A stretch of 64,000 nt of DNA, from NCBI RefSeq assembly GCF_035319885.1, contig NZ_CP141285.1, positions 2,860,001 to 2,924,000 on the forward strand, written 5' to 3'. Within the stretch, counting starts at the first letter, position 1. The number at the start of each line of letters is the position of its first letter. Made by a program: the position numbers and the translations under genes. The notes under the pieces are model-generated. The model searched no databases. It was not told where the DNA came from and worked only from the letters and a program-made list of their open reading frames with translations. The DNA is from Altererythrobacter sp. H2. GTDB taxonomy: Bacteria; Pseudomonadota; Alphaproteobacteria; Sphingomonadales; Sphingomonadaceae. Positions 46,745-62,756 of this stretch are shown one piece after another.

Positions 46745-47032
46745 TCAACCCACGATTGCCGGAAAAGTGCCAAGCACGATCGCAGCACCTGCGAGCCCCA
46801 TCGCAGCGAGCGCCAGCGGAGGGCGTGGCCGACCGATCCTCCGCACCCACGCGAACAGAGCGGCGATTGCCACCAGCAAGGCGGTAATCGCAATCCAGCC
46901 CGCGAGCGGCTGGCCCGGAAACACCAGCGCAGCGCCATAGGCGACCATGAAATGCGCCGCCCACACCGCGAAGACCACCACCAGCGTCCGGTAGATCGCG
47001 GGCCGCTCGATCGGATCGCCTTGCTCAGCCAC
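46745..47032 (-). CDS. Small three-helix membrane protein of the oxidase locus
   Basis: A 95-aa hydrophobic protein with three predicted helices (TLVVVFAVWAAHFMVAYGAA, WIAITALLVAIAALFAWV, LALAAMGLAGAAIVLGTFP). GTG 47032 overlaps the ctaD stop by 8 bp, so it is translated with the oxidase. It is not assigned to a family; it may be a subunit or assembly factor of the oxidase. Confidence 0.7.
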   Translation of the reverse strand: MAEQGDPIERPAIYRTLVVVFAVWAAHFMVAYGAALVFPGQPLAGWIAITALLVAIAALFAWVRRIGRPRPPLALAAMGLAGAAIVLGTFPAIVG

Positions 47033-49562
47033 CGGGAAACAGCCTCGGCACAAGGGTGAACACCGCGCCCTGCAGGGCGCTGAAGCCGATGAAGCGGGCG
47101 ACGATATCCATGGTCACATTGGTCGGCGTGGTCAGGAGCCCGCGCGCCTCGCGGAAGGCGAGGTAGACTGCCATGATCGCGGAAACGATCACCACCTGGC
47201 CCTGCAGCACACTGAGCATGAACACGGTCGCGCCCATGCCGCTGGTGGTGGGATGCAGGCCGGTGCCAAGCCATCCGGTCACATCCAGCCAGAGCGCGCC
47301 AACGAGCAGCACCACTGCCAGGGCAGCGACCATCCAGGGAAGATCGCCTGGTGGTTTGCCGTGTCGCCGCCTGAGAAGCCGCCGCGCACCCCATGCGCCC
47401 GTGAGCGCGGCAGCCTGTAAAACAACAATCAGCGCGGTCTGGCCCAGCGGCGGCGGCGGACCACGCCCGTCCGGATGAATGCCGAGGAGGTAGAAATAGG
47501 CGAACAGGGCCATGAAGCCGATCATGCCGACCACCACGAGCAGCGCGTTGAGCGCCCACCAGCCGTGGCTGCTGGGGCCGGTGATCGAAATCGGCACGGT
47601 GATCCCGGCACCGATCTCCGCTTCCTGCTGTGCAATCGGGCGATCAGTATCCCACAGCCAGCGCAGTGTGCTGACCACTGCAACAATCGCGCAAAAGATC
47701 GCAAACGCATAGGCCTGCACGGTCAGCGCGAGGAAAAACCCGGCTGTAAACACCGCCGCCGCCATCGGCCAGCCGGAGGGACCGGGCATCAGCTGGAGAT
47801 ATTGTGGCTCCGCCATCACGGTAGAGGTAATCAGCGTCTCGCGCCGGCCAGTGACCGAGCGGGGCAGGAAATAGCGCCCCTCCTCCACTTCCCGGCCGAT
47901 TTCCGGCCGGTCCCACAGCGGATCACGTGAGCTCACCACCGGGATCGAACGGGCTGAATAGAGCCCGGTCGGCAACCATTCGAGCGTGCTGCCGCCGTAG
48001 ATGTTGCCGATATCCTTGGTCTTGGTGAAGCGCAGGTTGCGGGCACAATCGGCCAGGAACAGCAAAACCCCCGCCGCCATCACGAACGCCCCGGCGGTCG
48101 ACAGCAGGTTGAGCAGGTCCAGTTTTCGCCCCGGCATATAAGTGTAGACCCGCCGGGGCATTCCCATCAACCCGGTGAGGTGCATCGGGAAGAAGGTCAG
48201 GTGCAGACCGCCGAACATCAGCCAGAACACCCATTGACCCACCCGGTCGGAGAGGGCGCGGCTGCTGGTCATGCCGTGCCAGTGGTAGAACGCCGCGAAC
48301 ATCGGGAACACCATCCCGCCCAGCAGGACATAATGCAGGTGCGCCACGATAAAGTAAGTGTCGTGCGCCTGCCAGTCGAACGGCACCATCCCCACCATCA
48401 CGCCGGTCAGGCCGCCCATGGTGAACACGATCACGCTGCCGACCACGAACAGCGCCGGCGTGGTCCACCGGATTGTCCCGCTGGCGAGCGTGGCGATCCA
48501 GCAGAACACCTGGATTCCGGCCGGCAGGCTCACAGCCATGCTCGCAGCGGAAAAGTATCCCGCCGATACGCGCGGCATGTCAGTGGTGAACATGTGGTGC
48601 GCCCATACGCCGAAGCTGATGAAACCGGTGGCAACCAACGCCAGCACGTTGAGCCGGTAACCGATCAGCGGGGTGCGCGCGACGGACGCCACCATCATCG
48701 ACATCAGCCCGGCGGCGGGGATGAAGATGATATAGACCTCCGGATGGCCGAAGAACCAGAACAGGTGCTGCCACAAGAGCGGGTCACCGCCGCGTGTGGC
48801 ATCGAAGAACGGCCAGTTGAAGGCGCGCTCGATCTCCAGCAGCATCGTGCACAGGATCACTGCGGGAAAGGCGACCAGGATCATCACCGCGAACACCAGC
48901 ATGGCCCAGGCGAACATGGGCATCTTGTCGAGCGTCATGCCAGGGGCGCGGGTCCGCAGCACGCCGACGATGATCTCGATTGCCCCGGCGATGGCGGATA
49001 TCTCGATGAAACCGATGCCAAGCAGCCAGAAATCGACGTTGATATCGGGGCTGAAGGCAATCGATGTCAGCGGAGGATACATGAACCAGCCGCCGTCTGG
49101 CGCGAGGCCGACGAACAGCGAGAAGAAGAACAGCGTTCCTCCCACTGCATAGGCCCAGTAGGCATAGGCCGAGAGGCGCGGAAACGGCAGGTCCCGCGCC
49201 GCCAGCATCTGCGGCAGCAGCATGACGCCGATCGCCTCCACCATCGGCACCGCGAACAGGAACATCATCACCGTGCCGTGCATGGTGAAGAACTGGTTGT
49301 ATGTTTCCGCCCCCAGGAAGTCCTGCATCGGTGCGGCCAGTTGCACCCGCATGCCCAGTGCCAGGATGCCGGCGGCAACGAAAAAGCCGAACGCGGTCAC
49401 GACGTACCAGAAACCGACGTAGTTGTTGTTGACGGCGGTCAGCAGGCGCCATCCCCTGGGGGCCTGCCAGACCCGCTCCAGCTCCTCCACCTCGCTATCC
49501 GGACGCCTCTCGGTTGGGAAACGCGCGTAGAGCGCCGGATCGAAGCCCGTTTCCGACCTCAT
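47025..49562 (-). CDS. ctaD: Cytochrome c oxidase subunit I-III fusion
   Basis: An 845-aa protein. Residues to about 560 are subunit I of an aa3-type heme-copper oxidase: the heme a ligand region (MHGTVMMFLFAVPMVEAIGV), CuB/Tyr motif FWFFGHPEVYIIFIPAAG near residue 270, FGVWAHHMFTTDMPR, and AHLHYVLLGGMVFP. After a hydrophilic linker (RSVTGRRETLITSTVMAEP) a second membrane part resembles subunit III (HGWWALNALLVVVGMIGFMAL; FREARGLL). Fusion of I and III occurs in some bacteria. It pumps protons while reducing oxygen. ATG overlaps ctaC stop by 4 bp. Confidence 0.93.
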   Translation of the reverse strand: MRSETGFDPALYARFPTERRPDSEVEELERVWQAPRGWRLLTAVNNNYVGFWYVVTAFGFFVAAGILALGMRVQLAAPMQDFLGAETYNQFFTMHGTVMMFLFAVPMVEAIGVMLLPQMLAARDLPFPRLSAYAYWAYAVGGTLFFFSLFVGLAPDGGWFMYPPLTSIAFSPDINVDFWLLGIGFIEISAIAGAIEIIVGVLRTRAPGMTLDKMPMFAWAMLVFAVMILVAFPAVILCTMLLEIERAFNWPFFDATRGGDPLLWQHLFWFFGHPEVYIIFIPAAGLMSMMVASVARTPLIGYRLNVLALVATGFISFGVWAHHMFTTDMPRVSAGYFSAASMAVSLPAGIQVFCWIATLASGTIRWTTPALFVVGSVIVFTMGGLTGVMVGMVPFDWQAHDTYFIVAHLHYVLLGGMVFPMFAAFYHWHGMTSSRALSDRVGQWVFWLMFGGLHLTFFPMHLTGLMGMPRRVYTYMPGRKLDLLNLLSTAGAFVMAAGVLLFLADCARNLRFTKTKDIGNIYGGSTLEWLPTGLYSARSIPVVSSRDPLWDRPEIGREVEEGRYFLPRSVTGRRETLITSTVMAEPQYLQLMPGPSGWPMAAAVFTAGFFLALTVQAYAFAIFCAIVAVVSTLRWLWDTDRPIAQQEAEIGAGITVPISITGPSSHGWWALNALLVVVGMIGFMALFAYFYLLGIHPDGRGPPPPLGQTALIVVLQAAALTGAWGARRLLRRRHGKPPGDLPWMVAALAVVLLVGALWLDVTGWLGTGLHPTTSGMGATVFMLSVLQGQVVIVSAIMAVYLAFREARGLLTTPTNVTMDIVARFIGFSALQGAVFTLVPRLFPGG

Positions 49563-53631: not shown

Positions 53632-54315
53632 TCAGAACCGCATGGCGAGGCCGGCCGAGAGCACCCAGGGATCGACCTTGTGGACTGTCTCGATCGCCAG
53701 GGTGTTGCCGGCAAACCACTGCGCGGTGGTATCTACGAAATACTTCTTCGCATCGAGGCTGACCGACATGCCCTGGTCGTTGATCGGGATATCGGCACCC
53801 GCCTGGAGCGCGATGCCAAGCTCATTCGACATCTTGAAGCGGGTCACGCCCAGCGGAATGGTCGCAGCACCCGGATTCTCGTTGATCCAGATGAAGTAAG
53901 TCGGGCCGGCCCCGACATAGGGCTTGATCCCGCCGAGATCGAAATGGAACTTGGCGGTGAAGGTAGCCGGGATAACCTTGGCGTCCGACACCAGCTCGGC
54001 CCCGGCCGGCAGCCCGGCGACAGCGTCGACATCGTGCTGGGTCATGCAGCAGATCGTCTCGACCGAGAAATTGTCGGAAAAGAAGTACTCGATCGCCACA
54101 GTCGGCACGACGTTGTCGTTGGCCTCGGTCTGGGTGGCTGCGGGCAGTCCGACGATATCGGTGTTGACCCGCTTGATCTTGCCATCGGGCAGAACTGCCG
54201 TTGCGAGAACCTTGACCTGGAGCGGTCCTTCCTCGTCCTGGGCAAGTGCGGGCGTGCTGCCCAGAGCAAAGGCAGCGGCAAGAGCGGCAGAGCCTGCCAG
54301 CAGCGCGAATTTCAT
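53632..54315 (-). CDS. ompW: OmpW-family outer-membrane protein
   Basis: A 227-aa exported eight-strand barrel (signal LAAAFALGSTPALAQ) with OmpW features: LQVKVLATAVLPDG, VVPTVAIEYFFSDNFSVETI, KPYVGAGPTYFIW, and terminal Phe in LSAGLAMRF. OmpW barrels allow hydrophobic or small compounds through the outer membrane and are often induced at low oxygen. Upstream lies an FNR-like box shared with the divergent regulator gene. Cysteine pair ICCMTQ is present in a loop. Confidence 0.92.
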   Translation of the reverse strand: MKFALLAGSAALAAAFALGSTPALAQDEEGPLQVKVLATAVLPDGKIKRVNTDIVGLPAATQTEANDNVVPTVAIEYFFSDNFSVETICCMTQHDVDAVAGLPAGAELVSDAKVIPATFTAKFHFDLGGIKPYVGAGPTYFIWINENPGAATIPLGVTRFKMSNELGIALQAGADIPINDQGMSVSLDAKKYFVDTTAQWFAGNTLAIETVHKVDPWVLSAGLAMRF

Positions 54316-54405
54316 TGGTCTTCCCTCCGCTTCGCAGTGGCCGCACTGTGCGACCGAGGATTTTGCGAAGCGGGGTTCAACTAGGCCCGCCGAATCGGCC
54401 CGACA

Positions 54406-54419
54406 TTGACGCAGGTCAA
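54406..54419. promoter_or_regulatory. FNR/Anr-type box in the ompW-regulator gap
   Basis: TTGACGCAGGTCAA, a TTGAC-N4-GTCAA dyad like the FNR/FixK consensus TTGAT-N4-ATCAA. It lies 36 bp before the regulator start and 91 bp before the ompW start, so it may control either or both. Confidence 0.82.
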
Positions 54420-54454
54420 AGACTCATCGCCACCCGGGCATCATTGGGGGCATC

Positions 54455-55183
54455 ATGATGCACAGCGCCCCTGCTCCGGTGGAAAACCACCCGCGTGCGG
54501 TTTTCGGACCCTTCGCGCAGACATTCCTGCCCTCGGGAACGCCGGATGATATCGTGTCCGAACTGATGGCGATCGGCCATCTCGTCAGCGCCAAGCGGTG
54601 CGCCAGGGCATTCCTGGACCCGGCGGTTGACCAGATGGTCTACCTGTCCCGAGGCGCCACCAAACTGGTTGCCACCGCATCGGAAGGGCGGGAGCAGATC
54701 GTCGCCTTCCACTTTGCCGGAGACCTGATTTCCGTGCCTGCCAGCGCGCAGCATGCCTATTCGCTCCATGCTCTGGTCGACAGCCAGCTGCTCACGTTCC
54801 CCACCCGCCAGTTCGTCGACTGCGCCGAACGATCCCCGGCGGTACTGCGCCAGGTGCTCGACCGGGTATTGGTCGCGCTGCACCGGTCACGCGACAAGGC
54901 AGTCGGGCTGGGGCGCAAGAATGCCGAGGAGCGTCTCGCCAGTTTCTTCGTGGCGATGGCCCAGCGGATCGGACGGCCCGAAGGCAAAGGCCTGGTACTC
55001 GAACTGCCAATGTCACGGCGGGACATCGCAGACGCGCTCGGCCTCACCATAGAAACCGTCAGCCGCCAGCTCGGGCGGCTGCGCGAACTGGGGCTGATCG
55101 AAACCTCGGGGCGGTCGGGTGTGCGGCTGCTCCAGCCGTCGGCGCTGGAAGCCCGGGCAGCCCATTTTCAACTCACCGCATAA
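54455..55183 (+). CDS. Crp/Fnr-family regulator (FixK-like, no N-terminal cysteine cluster)
   Basis: A 242-aa regulator with a cyclic-nucleotide-binding-like sensor (VYLSRGATKLVATASEGREQ, VAFHFAGDLISVPASAQHAY) and a C-terminal winged helix with GLTIETVSRQLGRLRELGLIE, whose E..SR residues match the FNR recognition helix for TTGAT-like sites. Only two cysteines are visible in the sensor half and none in the N-terminal region, so the classical [4Fe-4S] cluster of FNR is not predicted. It is therefore closer to FixK. A box lies directly upstream (autoregulation likely), and the ccoN box is 11 bp after its stop codon. Confidence 0.9.
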   Translation: MMHSAPAPVENHPRAVFGPFAQTFLPSGTPDDIVSELMAIGHLVSAKRCARAFLDPAVDQMVYLSRGATKLVATASEGREQIVAFHFAGDLISVPASAQHAYSLHALVDSQLLTFPTRQFVDCAERSPAVLRQVLDRVLVALHRSRDKAVGLGRKNAEERLASFFVAMAQRIGRPEGKGLVLELPMSRRDIADALGLTIETVSRQLGRLRELGLIETSGRSGVRLLQPSALEARAAHFQLTA

Positions 55184-55193
55184 ACGAACAGAT

Positions 55194-55207
55194 TTGACTC
55201 AGGTCAA
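55194..55207. promoter_or_regulatory. FNR/Anr-type box upstream of ccoN
   Basis: TTGACTCAGGTCAA, a perfect TTGAC-N4-GTCAA dyad. Centred about 60 bp before the ccoN ATG, consistent with class II activation of the cbb3 operon. Confidence 0.88.
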
Positions 55208-55260
55208 AGTGCGCCGCGCCGGGGGCGACTAGGTATCCGGCAAACGGAGGGACGAATCCC

Positions 55261-56919
55261 ATGGAATCAGTACTGGGCCGGGTTGGCTTGTGGTTCGGGG
55301 TTCTGCTGCTGGCAGTCGTAGCGATTGCCACCACGCAGGACGCCGGTTTTGCCGTGCATGCGACAATTGTCGCGGTCGCGGCGTTTGGGCTCATCTGGGC
55401 GACGGCGGGCAGCTATGACCCGATGGCCCGGGCGCAGAGCCTGTTCCGGATGCCGGATACCCCGTCCCGCTATGACGACGAGGTGATCCGCTGGGGTGTG
55501 CTGGCAACGATCTTCTGGGGCATTGCTGGCCTGCTGGTCGGCGTGATTATCGCGCTCCAGCTCGTTTTTCCTGACCTCAACCTCGAACCCTGGCTCAACT
55601 TCGGGCGCCTCCGCCCGCTGCACACGTCTGCAGTGATCTTCGCCTTCGGCGGCAACGCCCTGATCGCGACGAGCTTCTATGTCGTGCAGCGCACCTGCCG
55701 TGCGCAGCTGGCCTTCCCGTCGCTCGCCCGGTTCGTGTTCTGGGGCTATCAGATGTTCATCGTGCTGGCGGCCACCGGCTACCTGCTCGGCATCACCCAG
55801 TCGCGGGAATATGCCGAACCCGAGTGGTACGTCGATCTGTGGCTGACGATCGTCTGGGTCGCCTATTTCGCCGTCTTCGTGGGCACACTGATCAAGCGCA
55901 ACGAGCCGCACATCTATGTCGCCAACTGGTTCTACCTTGCCTTCATCGTCACGATTGCGATGCTGCATATCGTCAACAACCTTGCGATGCCGGTCAGCCT
56001 GGTCGGCACCAAGAGCTACAGCCTGTTTGCCGGGGTGCAGGATGCACTGACCCAGTGGTGGTATGGCCATAACGCGGTGGGTTTCTTCCTCACCGCAGGC
56101 TTCTTGGCCATGATGTACTACTTCGTGCCGAAGCAGGCGGAACGGCCGGTCTATTCCTACCGCCTGTCGATCATCCACTTCTGGAGCCTGATCTTCCTCT
56201 ACATCTGGGCCGGCCCGCACCACCTGCACTACACTGCCCTGCCCGACTGGGCGCAGACGCTGGGGATGGTGTTCTCGATCATGCTGTGGATGCCCAGCTG
56301 GGGCGGGATGATCAACGGCCTGATGACGCTGAACGGGGCATGGGACAAGGTCCGGACTGATCCGATCATCCGGATGATGGTGCTGGCACTCGCCTTCTAC
56401 GGCATGAGCACCTTCGAAGGCCCGATGATGAGCATCAAGGCCGTCAACAGCCTGAGCCACTACACCGACTGGACCATCGGCCACGTCCATTCCGGCGCGC
56501 TGGGGTGGAACGGCATGATTACCTTCGCCTGCCTCTACTTCCTGGTGCCCCGCCTGTGGCAGCGCGAGCGGATGTATTCCCTGCGGATGATCAACTGGCA
56601 CTTCTGGCTCGCGACCATCGGCATCGTGTTCTACGCGGCCAGCATGTGGGTTGCCGGCGTGACCCAGGGCCTGATGTGGCGCGAGGTCGACCCTTCGACC
56701 GGCTACCTCGTCAACAGCTTCATCGACACCGTCGCCGCACTCAAGCCGATGTATCTGCTGCGCGCCTTTGGCGGCCTGCTCTACCTCGCCGGGGCACTGG
56801 TGCTGGTCTACAACGTCTGGATGACCATCGCGGGGCGCCTGCGTGACGAAGCGCCGATGACCGATGCCGCCTATGACGAGGCGTCCGACCGCCCGATCGC
56901 CGCAGTTCCTGCCGAGTAA
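55261..56919 (+). CDS. ccoN: cbb3 oxidase subunit I, CcoN
   Basis: A 552-aa 12-helix heme-copper subunit. Metal ligands are visible: [58 protein letters not shown], and the closing [14 protein letters not shown]. It reduces oxygen with high affinity at low pressure. Like other C-type oxidases it lacks the Cox I HPEVY Tyr motif. The upstream FNR box fits micro-oxic control. ccoO follows 12 bp downstream. Confidence 0.97.
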
Positions 56920-56931
56920 GGGGCCAAACCG

Positions 56932-57678
56932 ATGAGCATGACCCAACGCCACAAGAAACTCGAAAAGAACATCACCCTGCTTTCGGTGGGTGTGTTCGTG
57001 ACCGTCGCCATCGGCGGGATCGTCGAGATTGCCCCGCTGTTCTGGATCGACAACACGATCGAGAAAGTCGAAGGGGTGCGGCCCTACACCCCGCTGGAGC
57101 AGGCCGGGCGCGACATCTACGTCCGCGAGGGCTGCTACCTCTGCCACAGCCAGATGGTCCGCCCGTTCCGGGACGAAGTGGAACGCTACGGCCACTACAG
57201 CCTGGCAGCCGAGTCGATGTACGACCACCCCTTCCAGTGGGGCTCCAAGCGGACCGGGCCGGACCTGGCCCGCGTCGGCAACCGCTATTCCGACAGCTGG
57301 CATGTCCAGCATCTCAAGGATCCGCGAAGCATGGTGCCGGACAGCATCATGCCGAGCTACAGCTTCCTGGCCGAAACCGACCTCAAGCTGGCGGACCCGG
57401 CGGCGAATCTTGTTGCCCTGCGCCGCGTCGGCGTGCCCTACACCGACGAGATGGTCGAAAAGGCGCCGGACGATCTCAAGCTACAGGCCGACCAGTTCGG
57501 CAACGTGGCCGATCTCAACGCCCGTTACCCCAAGGCGCAGGTCCGCGATTTCGATGGCGACCCGACCCGGATCACGGAAATGGATGCCCTGGTTGCCTAC
57601 CTCCAGATGCTCGGCACGCTGGTCGATGTGAACAGCGCAGCCGCACAGCAGGAACTCGCGCAGGAGAAGGGGCGATGA
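56932..57678 (+). CDS. ccoO: cbb3 oxidase subunit II, CcoO
   Basis: A 248-aa membrane-anchored monoheme cytochrome c. One N-terminal helix ([20 protein letters not shown]-like stretch), then heme motif [15 protein letters not shown] near residue 66 and the axial Met in DSIMPSYSF. It passes electrons from CcoP to CcoN. The stop overlaps the ccoQ start by 4 bp. Confidence 0.97.
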
Positions 57679-57839
57679 CCTTTTACGAAACCCTGCGCCA
57701 CTTCGCTGACAGCTGGGGCCTGCTGGCCATGATGGTCATGTTCCTGACCCTGTGCGCCTGGCCGTTCCGGCCCGGATCGAAAGCCCGCAACCGGGCCGCT
57801 GCCAACCTGATCTTCAAGGATTCCGACGATGGCGAATAA
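57675..57839 (+). CDS. ccoQ: cbb3 oxidase small subunit CcoQ
   Basis: A 54-aa membrane protein ([20 protein letters not shown]) with one helix, then a basic/acidic tail, the typical CcoQ size. ATG 57675 overlaps the ccoO stop (ATGA). Its stop overlaps the ccoP start by 11 bp. CcoQ stabilises the oxidase. Confidence 0.93.
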
Positions 57840-58749
57840 ACGGATCGATCAGCCGACCGGCACCGAGACTGTCGGCCATGAATGGGACGGGATCGAGGAA
57901 CTCGACACGCCGATGCCGCGCTGGTGGCTGTGGACGTTCTACCTCACGATCGCGTGGGCGATTGCCTACGTGATCGCCTACCCCGCCTGGCCACTGATCA
58001 ACAAGGGCACCGAAGGGATGCTCGGCTGGACCAGCCGCGGCCAGCTCGCGCAGGAAATGTCCGCCGCTGACGCAGCCCGGTCGGGTTTGCGGGAGCAGCT
58101 GGCCGTGACCGATATCGAGAAACTGCCGGGCCAGCCTGACCTGATGCAGCAGGCGGTTGCCGGCGGGGCAGCCGCATTCAAGATCCATTGCGCCCAGTGC
58201 CATGGTGCCGGTGGCGGCGGACTGCCTGGCGGGTTCCCCAACCTGGCGGACGACGAATGGCTGTGGGGCGGCGATCTGAAGGCCATCGAATACACACTGG
58301 TCCACGGCATCCGCCAGCATGATGATCCCGCCACCCGCCAGAGCGCGATGCCCGGCTATGACGGGGTGTTCGACCAGAACCAGCTCAACGCAGTGGTCGA
58401 TCATGTCCTCTCGCTGAGCGGCAAGGGGCCGGCCAACCCGGCCGGTGCCGAAATCTTCACCACCAATTGCTCGGTCTGCCACGGCCCGGCCGGCCAGGGT
58501 GACCGCACCCAGGGTGCGCCGACGCTGTCGAACGCCATCTGGCTTTACGGCAGCAGCCGCGAGCAGATTTCCCAGCAGATCCTGCGCCCCCGGATGGGCG
58601 TGATGCCCCGCTGGGCAGACAAGCTCGACGCGCCGACGATCAAGATGCTGGCAGCCTATGTCCATTCGCTGGGCGGCGGCGAGGAAACGCCGGTGATGGA
58701 GGCAGTGACCGATGCTGCTGCCCCCGCCGCCGGACCTGTGACAGAGTAA
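57829..58749 (+). CDS. ccoP: cbb3 oxidase diheme subunit III, CcoP
   Basis: A 306-aa diheme cytochrome c with N-terminal membrane segment (WLWTFYLTIAWAIAYVIAYP) and hemes at CAQCH near residue 123 and CSVCH near 215; axial Met residues lie in QSAMPGYDGV and GVMPRWADKL. The N-terminal motif GIEELDTPMPRWW is typical of CcoP. It receives electrons from cytochrome c or bc1. ccoG begins 4 bp after the stop. Confidence 0.97.
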   Translation: MANKRIDQPTGTETVGHEWDGIEELDTPMPRWWLWTFYLTIAWAIAYVIAYPAWPLINKGTEGMLGWTSRGQLAQEMSAADAARSGLREQLAVTDIEKLPGQPDLMQQAVAGGAAAFKIHCAQCHGAGGGGLPGGFPNLADDEWLWGGDLKAIEYTLVHGIRQHDDPATRQSAMPGYDGVFDQNQLNAVVDHVLSLSGKGPANPAGAEIFTTNCSVCHGPAGQGDRTQGAPTLSNAIWLYGSSREQISQQILRPRMGVMPRWADKLDAPTIKMLAAYVHSLGGGEETPVMEAVTDAAAPAAGPVTE

Positions 58750-58753
58750 GCTG

Positions 58754-60187
58754 GTGAACGCCCCCGAACCCAGCCTCTACGCAGCGAGCCGGACGGTCCA
58801 CAACAAGCGGATCGACGGCCCCTTCCGCCGCTTCAAGTGGCTGGTCATGCTGGTCACGCTGGGCATCTATTACGTGACGCCGTGGCTGAGGTGGGATCGC
58901 GGCCCCTACGCGCCGGATCAGGCCGTGCTGGTCGATCTGGCCAACCGCCGGTTCTACATGTTCGGCATCGAGATCTGGCCGCACGAGTTCTATTTCGTTG
59001 CCGGACTGCTGATCATGGCCGGGGTTGGCCTGTTCCTGGTCACCAGCGCCGTCGGGCGCGCCTGGTGCGGCTACGCCTGCCCGCAGACGGTCTGGACCGA
59101 TCTGTTCCAGCACATCGACCGCTTCGTGGACGGTGACCGCAACGCCCGGGTCCGGCTGGACAATGCGCCCTGGGGCCCGGCGAAGATCGCGCGGCGCCTG
59201 TTCAAGTGGTCGATCTACCTCGTCATCAGCCTGCTGACCGGCGGGGCCTGGATCCTGTACTTCGCCGATGCCCCCACCCTGCTGCGGGACTTTGTCACCT
59301 TCGAAGCCGCGCCGGTTGCCTACGCCACCGTGGCGGTGCTGACAGCCACCACCTTCGTGCTCGGCGGTTTCATGCGCGAACAGGTGTGCATCTACATGTG
59401 CCCCTGGCCGCGCATCCAGACCGCCATGCTCGACGAAAAGTCCCTGATCGTCACCTACAAGGACTGGCGCGGCGAACCGCGCGGCAGCGTCAAGAAGGCG
59501 GAAAAGAACCCCGGCCAGATCGGCGACTGCATCGACTGCATGCAATGCGTCCAGGTCTGCCCGACCGGCTGGGACATCCGCAACGGGCCGGACATTGCCT
59601 GCATCACCTGCGGCCTGTGCATCGACGCCTGTGACAAGGTGATGGCGGATATCGGCCGCCCGCGCGGGCTGATCGACTATGCCACCCAGGAAGACTGCGA
59701 GGCGGAAGCTGCCGGCCATGCGCCCCGGCCAGTGTGGAAGACCCTACTGCGGCCGCGCACTCTGGTCTATACCGGGATCTGGGCCGGCATCGGCTTCGCC
59801 CTGCTGTTTGCGCTGGGGGCCCGGACCCATACCGACCTCACCGTCTCTGCCGACCGCAATCCGCCCTACATGTTGATGGGCGATGGCTCCGTGCGCAATT
59901 CCTACACCCTGCGCCTGCGCAACATGGAAAGCCGCCCGCGCGACATGGAAATCGCCCTGAACGGCCTGCCCGCCGCGGTGATGTGGACTGACACGATCTC
60001 CCGCGAACAGGCGGCAGCGCGACACACTGTCAATGTCCCTGCCGACGCCATCCGCACCGTGCGCGCCTATGTAATCGTGCCGTCCGGCGCAACCGGCGGA
60101 GACTTCGCCTTCACGCTCACCTCGCTCGACGAGCAGCGCGAAAGCGATACCGTCGAAACCAGCTTCTCAACCCCCGGAGAGCCATGA
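58754..60187 (+). CDS. ccoG: CcoG (FixG), polyferredoxin-like copper chaperone
   Basis: A 477-aa membrane protein with five helices, the GYACPQTVWTDLFQ motif, and two ferredoxin-type Fe-S clusters (CIDCMQCVQVCP; CITCGLCIDACDK). A C-terminal Ig-like domain follows. FixG/CcoG reduces copper to Cu(I) for the cbb3 oxidase. GTG 58754 starts in NAPEPSLYAASRTV; no better ATG is near. Its stop overlaps ccoH by 4 bp. Confidence 0.95.
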   Translation: MNAPEPSLYAASRTVHNKRIDGPFRRFKWLVMLVTLGIYYVTPWLRWDRGPYAPDQAVLVDLANRRFYMFGIEIWPHEFYFVAGLLIMAGVGLFLVTSAVGRAWCGYACPQTVWTDLFQHIDRFVDGDRNARVRLDNAPWGPAKIARRLFKWSIYLVISLLTGGAWILYFADAPTLLRDFVTFEAAPVAYATVAVLTATTFVLGGFMREQVCIYMCPWPRIQTAMLDEKSLIVTYKDWRGEPRGSVKKAEKNPGQIGDCIDCMQCVQVCPTGWDIRNGPDIACITCGLCIDACDKVMADIGRPRGLIDYATQEDCEAEAAGHAPRPVWKTLLRPRTLVYTGIWAGIGFALLFALGARTHTDLTVSADRNPPYMLMGDGSVRNSYTLRLRNMESRPRDMEIALNGLPAAVMWTDTISREQAAARHTVNVPADAIRTVRAYVIVPSGATGGDFAFTLTSLDEQRESDTVETSFSTPGEP

Positions 60188-60633
60188 TGACCCGCGAATT
60201 CACCGGCAAGCGCTTCGCCCTGATCATGGTGATCGGCTTCGGCATCGTCATCGCGGTCAACTTCACCATGGCGGGCTATGCCACCAGCGGCTTCAGCGGG
60301 GTGGTGGTGGAGAACTCCTATGTCGCCAGCCAGAAATACAATGGCTGGCTGGAACAGGCCCGCGAACAGGACAAGCTTGGCTGGAGCGGGCCGGTCATCC
60401 GCACTGGCGAAGGCGCGCTGCTACTGGAAGCACCAGCCATTCCCGCAGGCGCCAAGGTGCGCGCGGAACTGCGCCGGCCGCTTGGCCAGCGTGAGGAAAT
60501 CGCCTTCCCGCTCAACGCCGACGGTGCAGGCCGCTATGTCTCCGCCGCGGCTGTCGCCCCCGGCCGCTGGACCGTGCGGGTGAACGTGACCGCGAACGGG
60601 CAGTCCGTGCGGTTCGAAACCGAAGTCCAGTGA
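60184..60633 (+). CDS. ccoH: CcoH (FixH) assembly protein
   Basis: A 149-aa FixH protein with one N-terminal helix (FALIMVIGFGIVIAVNFTMA) and the conserved NSYVASQKYNGWLEQAREQ region, then periplasmic domain. It stabilises assembly of the cbb3 oxidase. Its ATG overlaps the ccoG stop and its stop overlaps ccoI. Confidence 0.93.
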   Translation: MMTREFTGKRFALIMVIGFGIVIAVNFTMAGYATSGFSGVVVENSYVASQKYNGWLEQAREQDKLGWSGPVIRTGEGALLLEAPAIPAGAKVRAELRRPLGQREEIAFPLNADGAGRYVSAAAVAPGRWTVRVNVTANGQSVRFETEVQ

Positions 60634-62756
60634 ACGCGCTGGCCGACATTGCTGCCCCGGCCGGGACCGACGCACTGGTCGACAGCCGCTTTACCGTGCC
60701 GGGCATGCGCTGCGCCGGATGTATCGGCAAGGTCGAGCGCGGGCTTGGTGCGGTGCCCGGCGTGGAAGCAGCGCGGGTGAACTTCTCCGCCAAGCGGGTG
60801 GCCGTGCGCCACAGCGCCGAGATCGACCCGTTCGCCCTGATCGGTGAGCTTGAAAAACTTGGCTTCGAAGCGCAGCTCGCGTCGGACAACCCGCTGGCGC
60901 AGGACGACCGGGAAACCCGGATGCTGCTGCGGGCCACGGCGGTCGCCGGGTTCGGCATGATGAACGTGATGCTGCTCTCGGTCAGCGTCTGGTCGGGCGC
61001 GGGCGGGGTCACCAAAGACCTGTTCCACTGGCTCTCGGCCCTGATTGCCATTCCGGTGATCGCCTATGCCGGGCGGCCGTTCTTCTCCTCGGCACTGATG
61101 GCGCTCAGCCACCGGCGGACCAACATGGACGTGCCGATCTCGATCGGCGTCCTGCTGGCGACGGGACTCAGCCTCTACGAGACGGTCACCGGCGGCCAGC
61201 ACGCCTATTTCGACGGCGCGACCATGCTGTTGTTCTTCCTGCTGTGCGGCCGCGCGCTCGACGCGATGATGCGGGGCCGCACCAGGGCCGGGATTGGCGC
61301 ACTGCTGGGCCGGATGGGCCGCAGCGCCAGCGTGGTCCAGGCCGATGGCAGCACCCGGCGCCTGGCGACCGATCAGCTCTTTCCCGGGATGGTGATGATC
61401 GTCGCCGCCGGGGAGGCGCTGGCCGCCGATGGCGAGGTGATCGAAGGGCACGGCGCAATCGACAACGCCATGCTGACCGGGGAGAGCGAGCCCGAACCGG
61501 TCGGCCCCGGGCAGATGGTCCACGCCGGCAGCATGAACCTGACTGCGCCGCTGACCGTGCGCATTACCGCCACCGCCAGTGACACCGTGATTGCCGAGAT
61601 TGCCCGCCTGATGGACGAGGCCGGCCAGTCGCGCAGCCGCTATGTCCGCATCGCCGACCGCGCCTCGCGGCTTTATGCGCCCGCTGTCCACACGCTTGCC
61701 CTTGCGGCGTTCGCCGGCTGGATGATTGCGGGAGCGGGCTGGTACCAGTCGCTGGTGATCGCCATTGCCGTGCTGATCATCACCTGCCCCTGCGCGCTCG
61801 GCCTCGCGGTGCCCGCCGCGCAAGTAACCGCCGCCAGCGCGCTGCTGAAGCAGGGGGTGCTGGTGAAGGACGGCAGTGCGCTGGAGCGGCTGGCGCAGGT
61901 CGACATGGTGCTGTTCGACAAGACCGGCACGCTGACCCTGGGCGAGCCAGTGCCTGATCTGTCGATGCTTGATGCGGGGCAGAAATCCGCCGCGCTGGCG
62001 CTGGCAGAGCGCAGCCGCCATCCGCTGAGCGTGGGCCTGGCCAAGGCCTTGCACGACGAAGGCGTGACTGCCGCACCGGTCAAGGAGGTGCTTGAAACCG
62101 CCGGGCATGGCCTAACCGGAATGATGGGCGGCCTGGCGGTGGCGCTGGAAAAGCCGGAGCAGGCCGGGACGAGCGTGGCCAGCGAGCTGCGCCTGGGTGA
62201 CCGGACAGTGATGATCCCGTTCCGCGACCGGCTGCGCGAGGATGCCGCGGAGGTGGTCGCCAGCCTCAAGCAGCAGGGCATCCCCGTCTCGATGATGTCG
62301 GGCGACCGGTCTGACGCCGTGCGCGACGTGGCGAGCGAACTAGGCCTGTTCGGGCGCTGCGGGATGAAGCCGGAAGAGAAACTGGCGGAACTGGAACGGC
62401 TCAAGGCTCTGGGGCACCTGCCGCTGATGGTCGGCGACGGGCTCAATGACGGCCCTGCCCTGGCCGCTGCTCATGCATCGATTGCGCCCGGCAGTGCCAG
62501 CGATGCGAGCCAGCAGGCCGCCGACGCCGTGTTCCTCGGCACCCGGCTTGCTCCGGTGCTGGCGGCGCTGAAAATCTCGCGCCGCACCATGCAGATCGTG
62601 AAACAGAACTTCGGACTGGCGATCGGCTACAACGTGCTGGCCGTGCCGCTGGCGCTGGCAGGCTATGTCACCCCGCTGATTGCCGCGATTGCCATGTCGA
62701 CCAGTTCGCTGATCGTGGTCGCCAATTCGCTGCGCCTGGCACGAAGCGGCCGGTGA
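60630..62756 (+). CDS. ccoI: CcoI (FixI) copper-translocating P-type ATPase
   Basis: A 708-aa P1B ATPase. One HMA domain (GMRCAGCIGKVERGLGAV), CPC in [14 protein letters not shown] near residue 386, DKTGTLTLGE near 430, SRHPLSVGLAKAL and GDGLNDGPALAAAHASIA. CcoI pumps copper for insertion into the cbb3 oxidase CuB centre, not for resistance, unlike the island ATPase. It overlaps ccoH and ccoS by 4 bp. Confidence 0.96.
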   Translation: MNALADIAAPAGTDALVDSRFTVPGMRCAGCIGKVERGLGAVPGVEAARVNFSAKRVAVRHSAEIDPFALIGELEKLGFEAQLASDNPLAQDDRETRMLLRATAVAGFGMMNVMLLSVSVWSGAGGVTKDLFHWLSALIAIPVIAYAGRPFFSSALMALSHRRTNMDVPISIGVLLATGLSLYETVTGGQHAYFDGATMLLFFLLCGRALDAMMRGRTRAGIGALLGRMGRSASVVQADGSTRRLATDQLFPGMVMIVAAGEALAADGEVIEGHGAIDNAMLTGESEPEPVGPGQMVHAGSMNLTAPLTVRITATASDTVIAEIARLMDEAGQSRSRYVRIADRASRLYAPAVHTLALAAFAGWMIAGAGWYQSLVIAIAVLIITCPCALGLAVPAAQVTAASALLKQGVLVKDGSALERLAQVDMVLFDKTGTLTLGEPVPDLSMLDAGQKSAALALAERSRHPLSVGLAKALHDEGVTAAPVKEVLETAGHGLTGMMGGLAVALEKPEQAGTSVASELRLGDRTVMIPFRDRLREDAAEVVASLKQQGIPVSMMSGDRSDAVRDVASELGLFGRCGMKPEEKLAELERLKALGHLPLMVGDGLNDGPALAAAHASIAPGSASDASQQAADAVFLGTRLAPVLAALKISRRTMQIVKQNFGLAIGYNVLAVPLALAGYVTPLIAAIAMSTSSLIVVANSLRLARSGR

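Follow-up and report, generated by a model that had tools for sequence, protein, structure and literature searches.

The FixK2 box of Bradyrhizobium diazoefficiens is TTGA-N6-TCAA. FixK2 itself is a protein of the Crp/Fnr fold with an E..SR recognition helix and without Fe-S cysteines (PDB 4i2o). According to the sections of PMC9104804 drawn on here, the cbb3 (fixNOQP) operon has a FixK2 box in its promoter; FixLJ induces FixK2, which loses activity when C183 is oxidized, activates in vitro with no effector identified, and represses its own gene. The FixK of Caulobacter (NF050806) and the rhizobial FixKf are also cysteine-free and FNR-like; the known representatives act under FixLJ or hFixL-FxkR, and FixKf has been proposed to represent a separate loss of the cluster (cited parts of PMC4999443). 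Classical FNR (Escherichia coli, Aliivibrio fischeri) has the four cluster cysteines. A sphingomonad FNR pair, FnrN and "FixK," is described in Sphingopyxis granuli TFA, where one appears to act under the other: FnrN apparently activates a second fnr-like gene, and the Fnr site located between ccoN and the divergent ompW may, the authors suggest, serve both (excerpts of PMC7713065).

The locus described here lies in a 64-kb window (G000:C1:2860001-2924000) of a single-contig, 3.24-Mb genome of an erythrobacter-like alphaproteobacterium and centers on a regulator that shares its fold, DNA motif, and recognition helix with FNR but has none of the cluster cysteines, in which it resembles FixK2, the Caulobacter FixK, and FixKf. 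Since both S. granuli proteins keep the four cysteines, that case is an analogy and not an ortholog with the same property. The reading we prefer, with a probability of roughly 0.72, is that the regulator would be an FNR-family activator with no sensor of its own, relaying the signal of a separate FNR that is labile to oxygen. The features are collected in Table 1. The cco open reading frames (ORFs) other than ccoH, used as tblastn queries, occur in identical order in five related loci (L064 to L068). About 5 kb away from the regulator and the cbb3 cluster, the window also contains a very long (845 amino acids) cytochrome c oxidase subunit I-like ORF (47025-49562, minus strand), which by eye is apparently fused to more subunit-III-like sequence.

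Table 1. Features of the regulator locus and the second FNR gene (window positions unless a contig is given)
Feature	Position	Strand	Basis or remark
ompW, outer-membrane protein	53632-54315	-	PF03922, 7.7e-49; divergent to regulator
Predicted ompW -10, TAGTTG	54378-54383	-	Predicted start ~54371
FNR/FixK box 1, TTGACGCAGGTCAA	54406-54419	.	Common to the divergent regulator and ompW promoters
Predicted regulator -10, CATTGG	54442-54447	+	Predicted; A at -11 = 54443
Predicted regulator transcription start	54454-54455	+	Predicted; on or adjoining the ATG
Cysteine-cluster-free FixK-like Crp/Fnr regulator, 242 aa	54455-55183	+	Pfam/NCBIfam matches
FNR/FixK box 2, TTGACTCAGGTCAA	55194-55207	.	Precedes ccoN
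Predicted ccoN -10, TAGGTA	55230-55235	+	Predicted start ~55242
ccoN, cbb3-type cytochrome c oxidase subunit I	55261-56919	+	TIGR00780, 780.5 bits (cut-off 583)
Remaining cco gene cluster	56932-62756	+	Five ORFs; named by eye
ccoO	56932-57678	+	ORF; named by eye
ccoP	57829-58749	+	ORF; named by eye
ccoG	58754-60187	+	ORF; named by eye
ccoH	60184-60633	+	ORF; named by eye
ccoI	60630-62756	+	ORF; named by eye
Cysteine-bearing FNR	G000:C1:1484504-1485199	-	C-x2-C-x7-C plus central cysteine

Boxes 1 and 2 turned out to be the only exact TTGAC-N4-GTCAA sites in the 64 kb, where 0.01 were expected on average and two were reached in none of 100 shuffles; the FNR boxes that a sequence-only reading of this DNA had placed before the regulator and ompW and before ccoN are therefore exact and far beyond chance. 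With one mismatch allowed, TTGAY-N4-RTCAA had nine sites in the window against 3.39 expected. The whole genome contains 11 palindromic TTGAY-N4-RTCAA sites, compared with one for a control in which the pattern was read backwards. Besides boxes 1 and 2, these precede genes for DksA-like, DUF465, FMO-like oxidoreductase, and carboxymuconolactone-decarboxylase-like proteins and, as a less sure target, an M48-peptidase-like gene, while for four of the 11 no convincing target gene was seen.

The regulator ORF matches PF13545 (4.4e-19), PF00325, and PF00027. Its recognition helix, TIETVSRQ, is of the E..SR type, with E200, S203, and R204 invariant in all 64 aligned sequences of its clade, and together with the exact boxes it presents the combination by which FNR/FixK DNA recognition is defined, namely an E..SR helix and a TTGA-N6-TCAA palindrome, as the sequence-only reading had proposed. 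That reading was also right that the FNR cysteine cluster is missing. The protein has two cysteines only, C49 and C123, and none of the four cluster cysteines of FNR (three N-terminal and one central), the central position being taken by L113 in the alignment; an alternative upstream start was considered and rejected, as the frame back to the previous stop adds no cysteine. By its cysteines, then, the regulator does not qualify as an Fe-S oxygen sensor of the FNR type.

Its best NCBIfam match is the Caulobacter FixK family NF050806, at 107 bits of the 300 required for an equivalog. By the definition of Dufour et al. (2010), whose FixK group comprises the FNR-FixK group proteins missing at least one of the four cysteines (relevant passage of PMC2908626), it is a FixK, its cysteines being absent, with its place in the mixed FNR-FixK group resting on the NCBIfam family matches and not on the clustering of those authors. 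The best solved relative by sequence is FixK2 (PDB 4i2o, 1.8e-21), above the A. fischeri FNR. A predicted structure (AlphaFold2; pLDDT 94.4, pTM 0.88) has the Crp/FNR fold, and a Foldseek search with it recovered the whole superfamily, with CRP-type entries at the top by E-value and FixK2 at rank 23 (TMt 0.85), so that the fold by itself gives no assignment. The position of FixK2 C183 is occupied by S187, as judged by residue count of the alignment, and this serine is invariant in 64 of 64 clade sequences; residue 183 is itself a serine in the crystal entry 4i2o used for the alignment. The cysteine on which redox control of the FixK2 type depends is thus absent here. The EGREQ loop of the regulator, which we take to be of the type that contacts RNA polymerase, resembles the loop of FixK2, an activator. 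We read the regulator as FixK-like by its cysteines and possibly FixK2-like in its action.

The regulator belongs to a cysteine-free clade from Erythrobacteraceae and sphingomonads related to them. At 230 bits or more (next match, 181), this clade was present in 14 of the 119 family genomes that were at least 95% complete. Related loci were taken from named genomes, as the best 80 of 143, and 59 of these 80 are titled Erythrobacteraceae; one, from a metagenome-assembled genome (MAG) titled Erythrobacter sp. 34-65-8, encodes a protein identical to that of the window. The motif C-x2-C-x5-8-C was absent from the clade protein in all 80 of these loci and, with no selection on the trait, from all 103 ORFs that best matched the window protein at more than 130 bits; the ORFs that do carry it scored 105.5 bits or less against the window protein. 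The usual order of the locus is ompW, box, regulator, box, ccoN, with ompW transcribed away from the others; ccoN lies downstream of the regulator in 71 and ompW divergent to it in 56 of the best 80 of 143 loci. In a quick tree, 57 clade rows formed one group (SH-aLRT 100) separate from 10 cysteine-free rows of the class. Constraining the clade together with six FixK-like rows, which are FixK-like by score only and not verified FixK since the FixK cut-off was reached in none of the 142 genomes of the class search, gave a likelihood 19.06 higher and a p-AU of 0.738, so that the joined tree was not rejected. A cluster loss independent of FixK, to which the first tree had pointed, was not upheld by this test and is not claimed.

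Four Crp/Fnr proteins of the genome score above the PF13545 cut-off, and one of them is an FNR with the cysteines, which fits the earlier suggestion that oxygen sensing comes from elsewhere. Its N-terminus is MNLSCSTCPVKERAAC, its central cysteine is kept in ESRLCVF, and it is FnrL/FnrN-like, with 155 of the 300 bits that the FnrL equivalog requires. The helix motif LGLTIETVSRQL is identical in this FNR and in the regulator, so that sequence alone cannot assign a box to one protein or the other. All 14 of the clade-holding genomes also carry an FNR that has the C-x2-C-x7-C motif together with the central cysteine; in one MAG (G019, 85% complete), a clade member was present and a cysteine-bearing FNR was not found. 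In 22 of the best 80 of 143 loci, a cysteine-bearing FNR lies in the same fetched stretch as the clade member.

That the regulator itself senses low oxygen, redox, or another signal by means other than an FNR Fe-S cluster, such as a small-molecule pocket, a heme, or a single thiol, appears unlikely to us. It keeps a whole sensory domain, modeled with high confidence, in a fold shared with many effector-binding Crp/Fnr proteins, the PDB matches including sensors of cAMP, 2-oxoglutarate, and CO/heme; yet not one cysteine is kept throughout, or nearly so, in 64 aligned clade members, the FixK2 redox position is a serine throughout, and each of the 14 clade-holding genomes that are at least 95% complete has a cysteine-bearing FNR, so that none of them shows the regulator working alone. 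A new way of sensing, as proposed in the sequence-only reading, is not required by the data, and nothing was found to support it.

The cysteine-bearing FNR gene of the window genome falls in an FnrN subgroup on a long branch (1.42), unlike the FnrN beside the cco loci of other erythrobacters (L069 and L153/L154). About 150 bp behind its 3' end, where a gene identified by eye as moaE-like ends, lies an exact FNR box (L002:1308-1321; G000:C1:1484335-1484348); no gene was seen for it to serve. At the matching place in two other genomes (G003 and G016), a box precedes a gene, located between moaE and fnr, for a membrane-like protein of about 150 amino acids, for which there was no NCBIfam match. 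Since this gene is missing from the window genome, the box behind fnr there looks like a relic.

The relay can be set out on the observed sequence anatomy, conservation, co-occurrence, and lack of a FixJ match at the family cut-off; the identity of the box-binding protein, activation rather than repression, and the response to oxygen are what we infer. At low oxygen, the cysteine-bearing FNR would assemble its Fe-S cluster and bind box 1, turning on the regulator gene and, in the opposite direction, ompW; on box 2 it would turn on ccoNOQP. Both the regulator and ccoN would be activated from class II sites with the box centered at -41.5, and the regulator mRNA would start on its start codon or one base before it. 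Having neither an Fe-S cluster nor a conserved redox cysteine, the regulator would be active as made, bind the same two boxes, and add to or hold the activation. Most likely, then, this is a cascade of an ordinary kind in an unusual and conserved gene layout, with the regulator switched on by a separate oxygen sensor of its own family. The best reading by analogy is that such a relay would follow the logic of the FixLJ-FixK2 cascade, with FNR in the place of FixLJ.

Since oxygen input through a FixL/FixJ pair had been suggested and a genome search for it and for a second FNR with cysteines proposed, it is relevant that the search yielded the second FNR but no FixJ at the cut-off. The best match to NF006900 in the window genome had 109.4 bits against a cut-off of 255, a cut-off passed in one of 14 control genomes, so the FixJ required for a FixLJ-FixK cascade was not found at this threshold and the regulator was not filed in the FixLJ-FixK system. 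The 109-bit protein is an orphan FixJ-like receiver-HTH protein (L027; G000:C1:1902550, minus strand), whose receiver pocket by eye looks altered. None of the 16 HisKA matches of the genome lies beside its gene, the nearest being about 37 kb off. One of the 16 kinases, the PAS-HisKA protein L173, matched FixL-containing PDB entries among many kinases, and by eye no heme-binding site was seen in it. As a source of the oxygen signal, FixL/FixJ is thus unsupported at the family cut-offs. A RegB/PrrB/ActS-type kinase was considered as an alternative input and rejected, with a best match in the genome of 66 bits against a cut-off of 350, which one of 14 control genomes passed.

We regard it as very improbable that the regulator is a FixK under the control of FixLJ, the arrangement of rhizobia and Caulobacter. 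The family of its best NCBIfam match, the joined tree, and the orphan FixJ-like protein speak for this arrangement, while both the FixK and the FixJ cut-offs are unreached, no HisKA match adjoins the FixJ-like gene, and the conserved upstream element is an FNR box, with 78 of the best 80 of 143 loci having an exact TTGAY-N4-RTCAA site before the regulator gene.

The relay reading leads to the promoters, which were numbered on the assumption that the box centers at -41.5; as the loci are related to each other, the promoter counts are not independent events. Of the 71 ccoN loci within the best 80 of 143, an exact box stands no more than 120 bp before ccoN in 57 and is absent from that stretch in 14. 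In all 57 the box center lies 59.5 to 67.5 bp before the nominal ccoN start, which was extrapolated from the alignment and often has no start codon, so that box distances may be off by a few bases. Among nonredundant promoters, A-11 is present in all 46 for ccoN (with T-12 in 0.96), in 0.98 of 41 for the regulator with a start codon at about +1, in 0.88 of 24 for the regulator with a later start, and in 0.88 of 51 in the ompW direction. A -10 hexamer of the xAxxxT form was not found at one fixed place in these promoters, the conserved elements being T-12/A-11 for ccoN and A-11 for the others. Box spacing and A-11 together imply three class II promoters on two boxes, with box 1 predicted to serve the two divergent promoters and box 2 to serve ccoN.

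These distances also bear on the idea that the regulator is a competitor or brake that limits the cysteine-bearing FNR by sitting on FNR boxes in air or during recovery. Such a role would agree with the identical recognition motif, with a box covering the regulator's own promoter, and with the self-repression reported for FixK2 (same sections of PMC9104804); we nevertheless find it quite unlikely, since both boxes have the spacing of class II activation and A-11 is conserved, the regulator adjoins genes expected to be on at low oxygen, and its EGREQ loop resembles that of an activator. For the relay that we favor, autoregulation from box 1 could still be negative, as it is for FixK2.

In 50 of the 78 box-bearing loci (within the best 80 of 143), the start codon of the regulator lies 40.5 to 43.5 bp from the center of box 1; 28 of them have an ATG at 41.5 bp and 16 have one at 42.5 bp. 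As the start codon thereby coincides with the predicted start of transcription, the mRNA of the regulator probably has no leader. The window distance is 42.5, which would place the transcription start one base before the ATG. In keeping with a leaderless mRNA, a ribosome-site motif was found upstream of 9 of the 50 leaderless-type starts (0.30 expected from shuffles) versus 70 of 71 ccoN starts; in the "leadered" class of regulator genes, whose start codons are less sure, the motif was found in only 13 of 27. The window has a GGGGG run 4 nucleotides before the regulator ATG, where a very weak ribosome site is conceivable. Leaderless mRNAs are known in alphaproteobacteria, with 320 start sites at 0 to 10 nucleotides before the start codon in B. 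japonicum (cited portion of PMC4842269). A broader idea, which we hold to be rather unlikely, is that a widespread sphingomonad FNR branch without any sensing cysteine, that of FixK2 redox control included, either reads a signal in its intact sensory domain or has had its signal moved to transcription and translation; in the latter case, the regulator's own gene would be an FNR-activated leaderless mRNA, and its output may depend both on FNR and on the state of the ribosome.

A published comparison that covered 50 alphaproteobacterial genomes, few of them from Sphingomonadales, credited this order with the cysteine-bearing FnrN only (consulted sections of PMC4999443), and no papers on the present clade were found in the limited literature searched. 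As far as that literature shows, a cysteine-free FNR branch, frequent in Erythrobacteraceae, is apparently new for Sphingomonadales, and so is the conserved, probably leaderless and FNR-activated regulator gene; the parts of the system are of known kinds. In these bacteria, the oxygen signal would probably enter through a second FNR and not through FixLJ. The conserved layout, in which one box is predicted to serve two divergent promoters of class II, the regulator mRNA probably lacks a leader, and ccoN has a second box, offers a clean natural system that suits asking why a sensorless FNR copy persists beside a sensing one.

Nine of the best 80 of 143 loci have no ccoN downstream of the regulator, and the neighbors were read for four of these. 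By family models, hemN follows the clade member in L127, and nrdD and nrdG are divergent to it in L135; these are low-oxygen functions, an association that supports the putative low-oxygen role. L135 is of the same genus as the window, and nrdD and nrdG are anaerobic ribonucleotide reductase genes. The gene in L135 (L062:5488-6255) encodes a further cysteine-free paralog away from ccoN, with L126 and L141 as its neighbors in the tree. In L127 to L130, a cysteine-bearing FNR and a cysteine-free copy occur within one stretch; in L127 the two are in tandem and followed by hemN, with another FNR box between and a catalase-peroxidase gene nearby.
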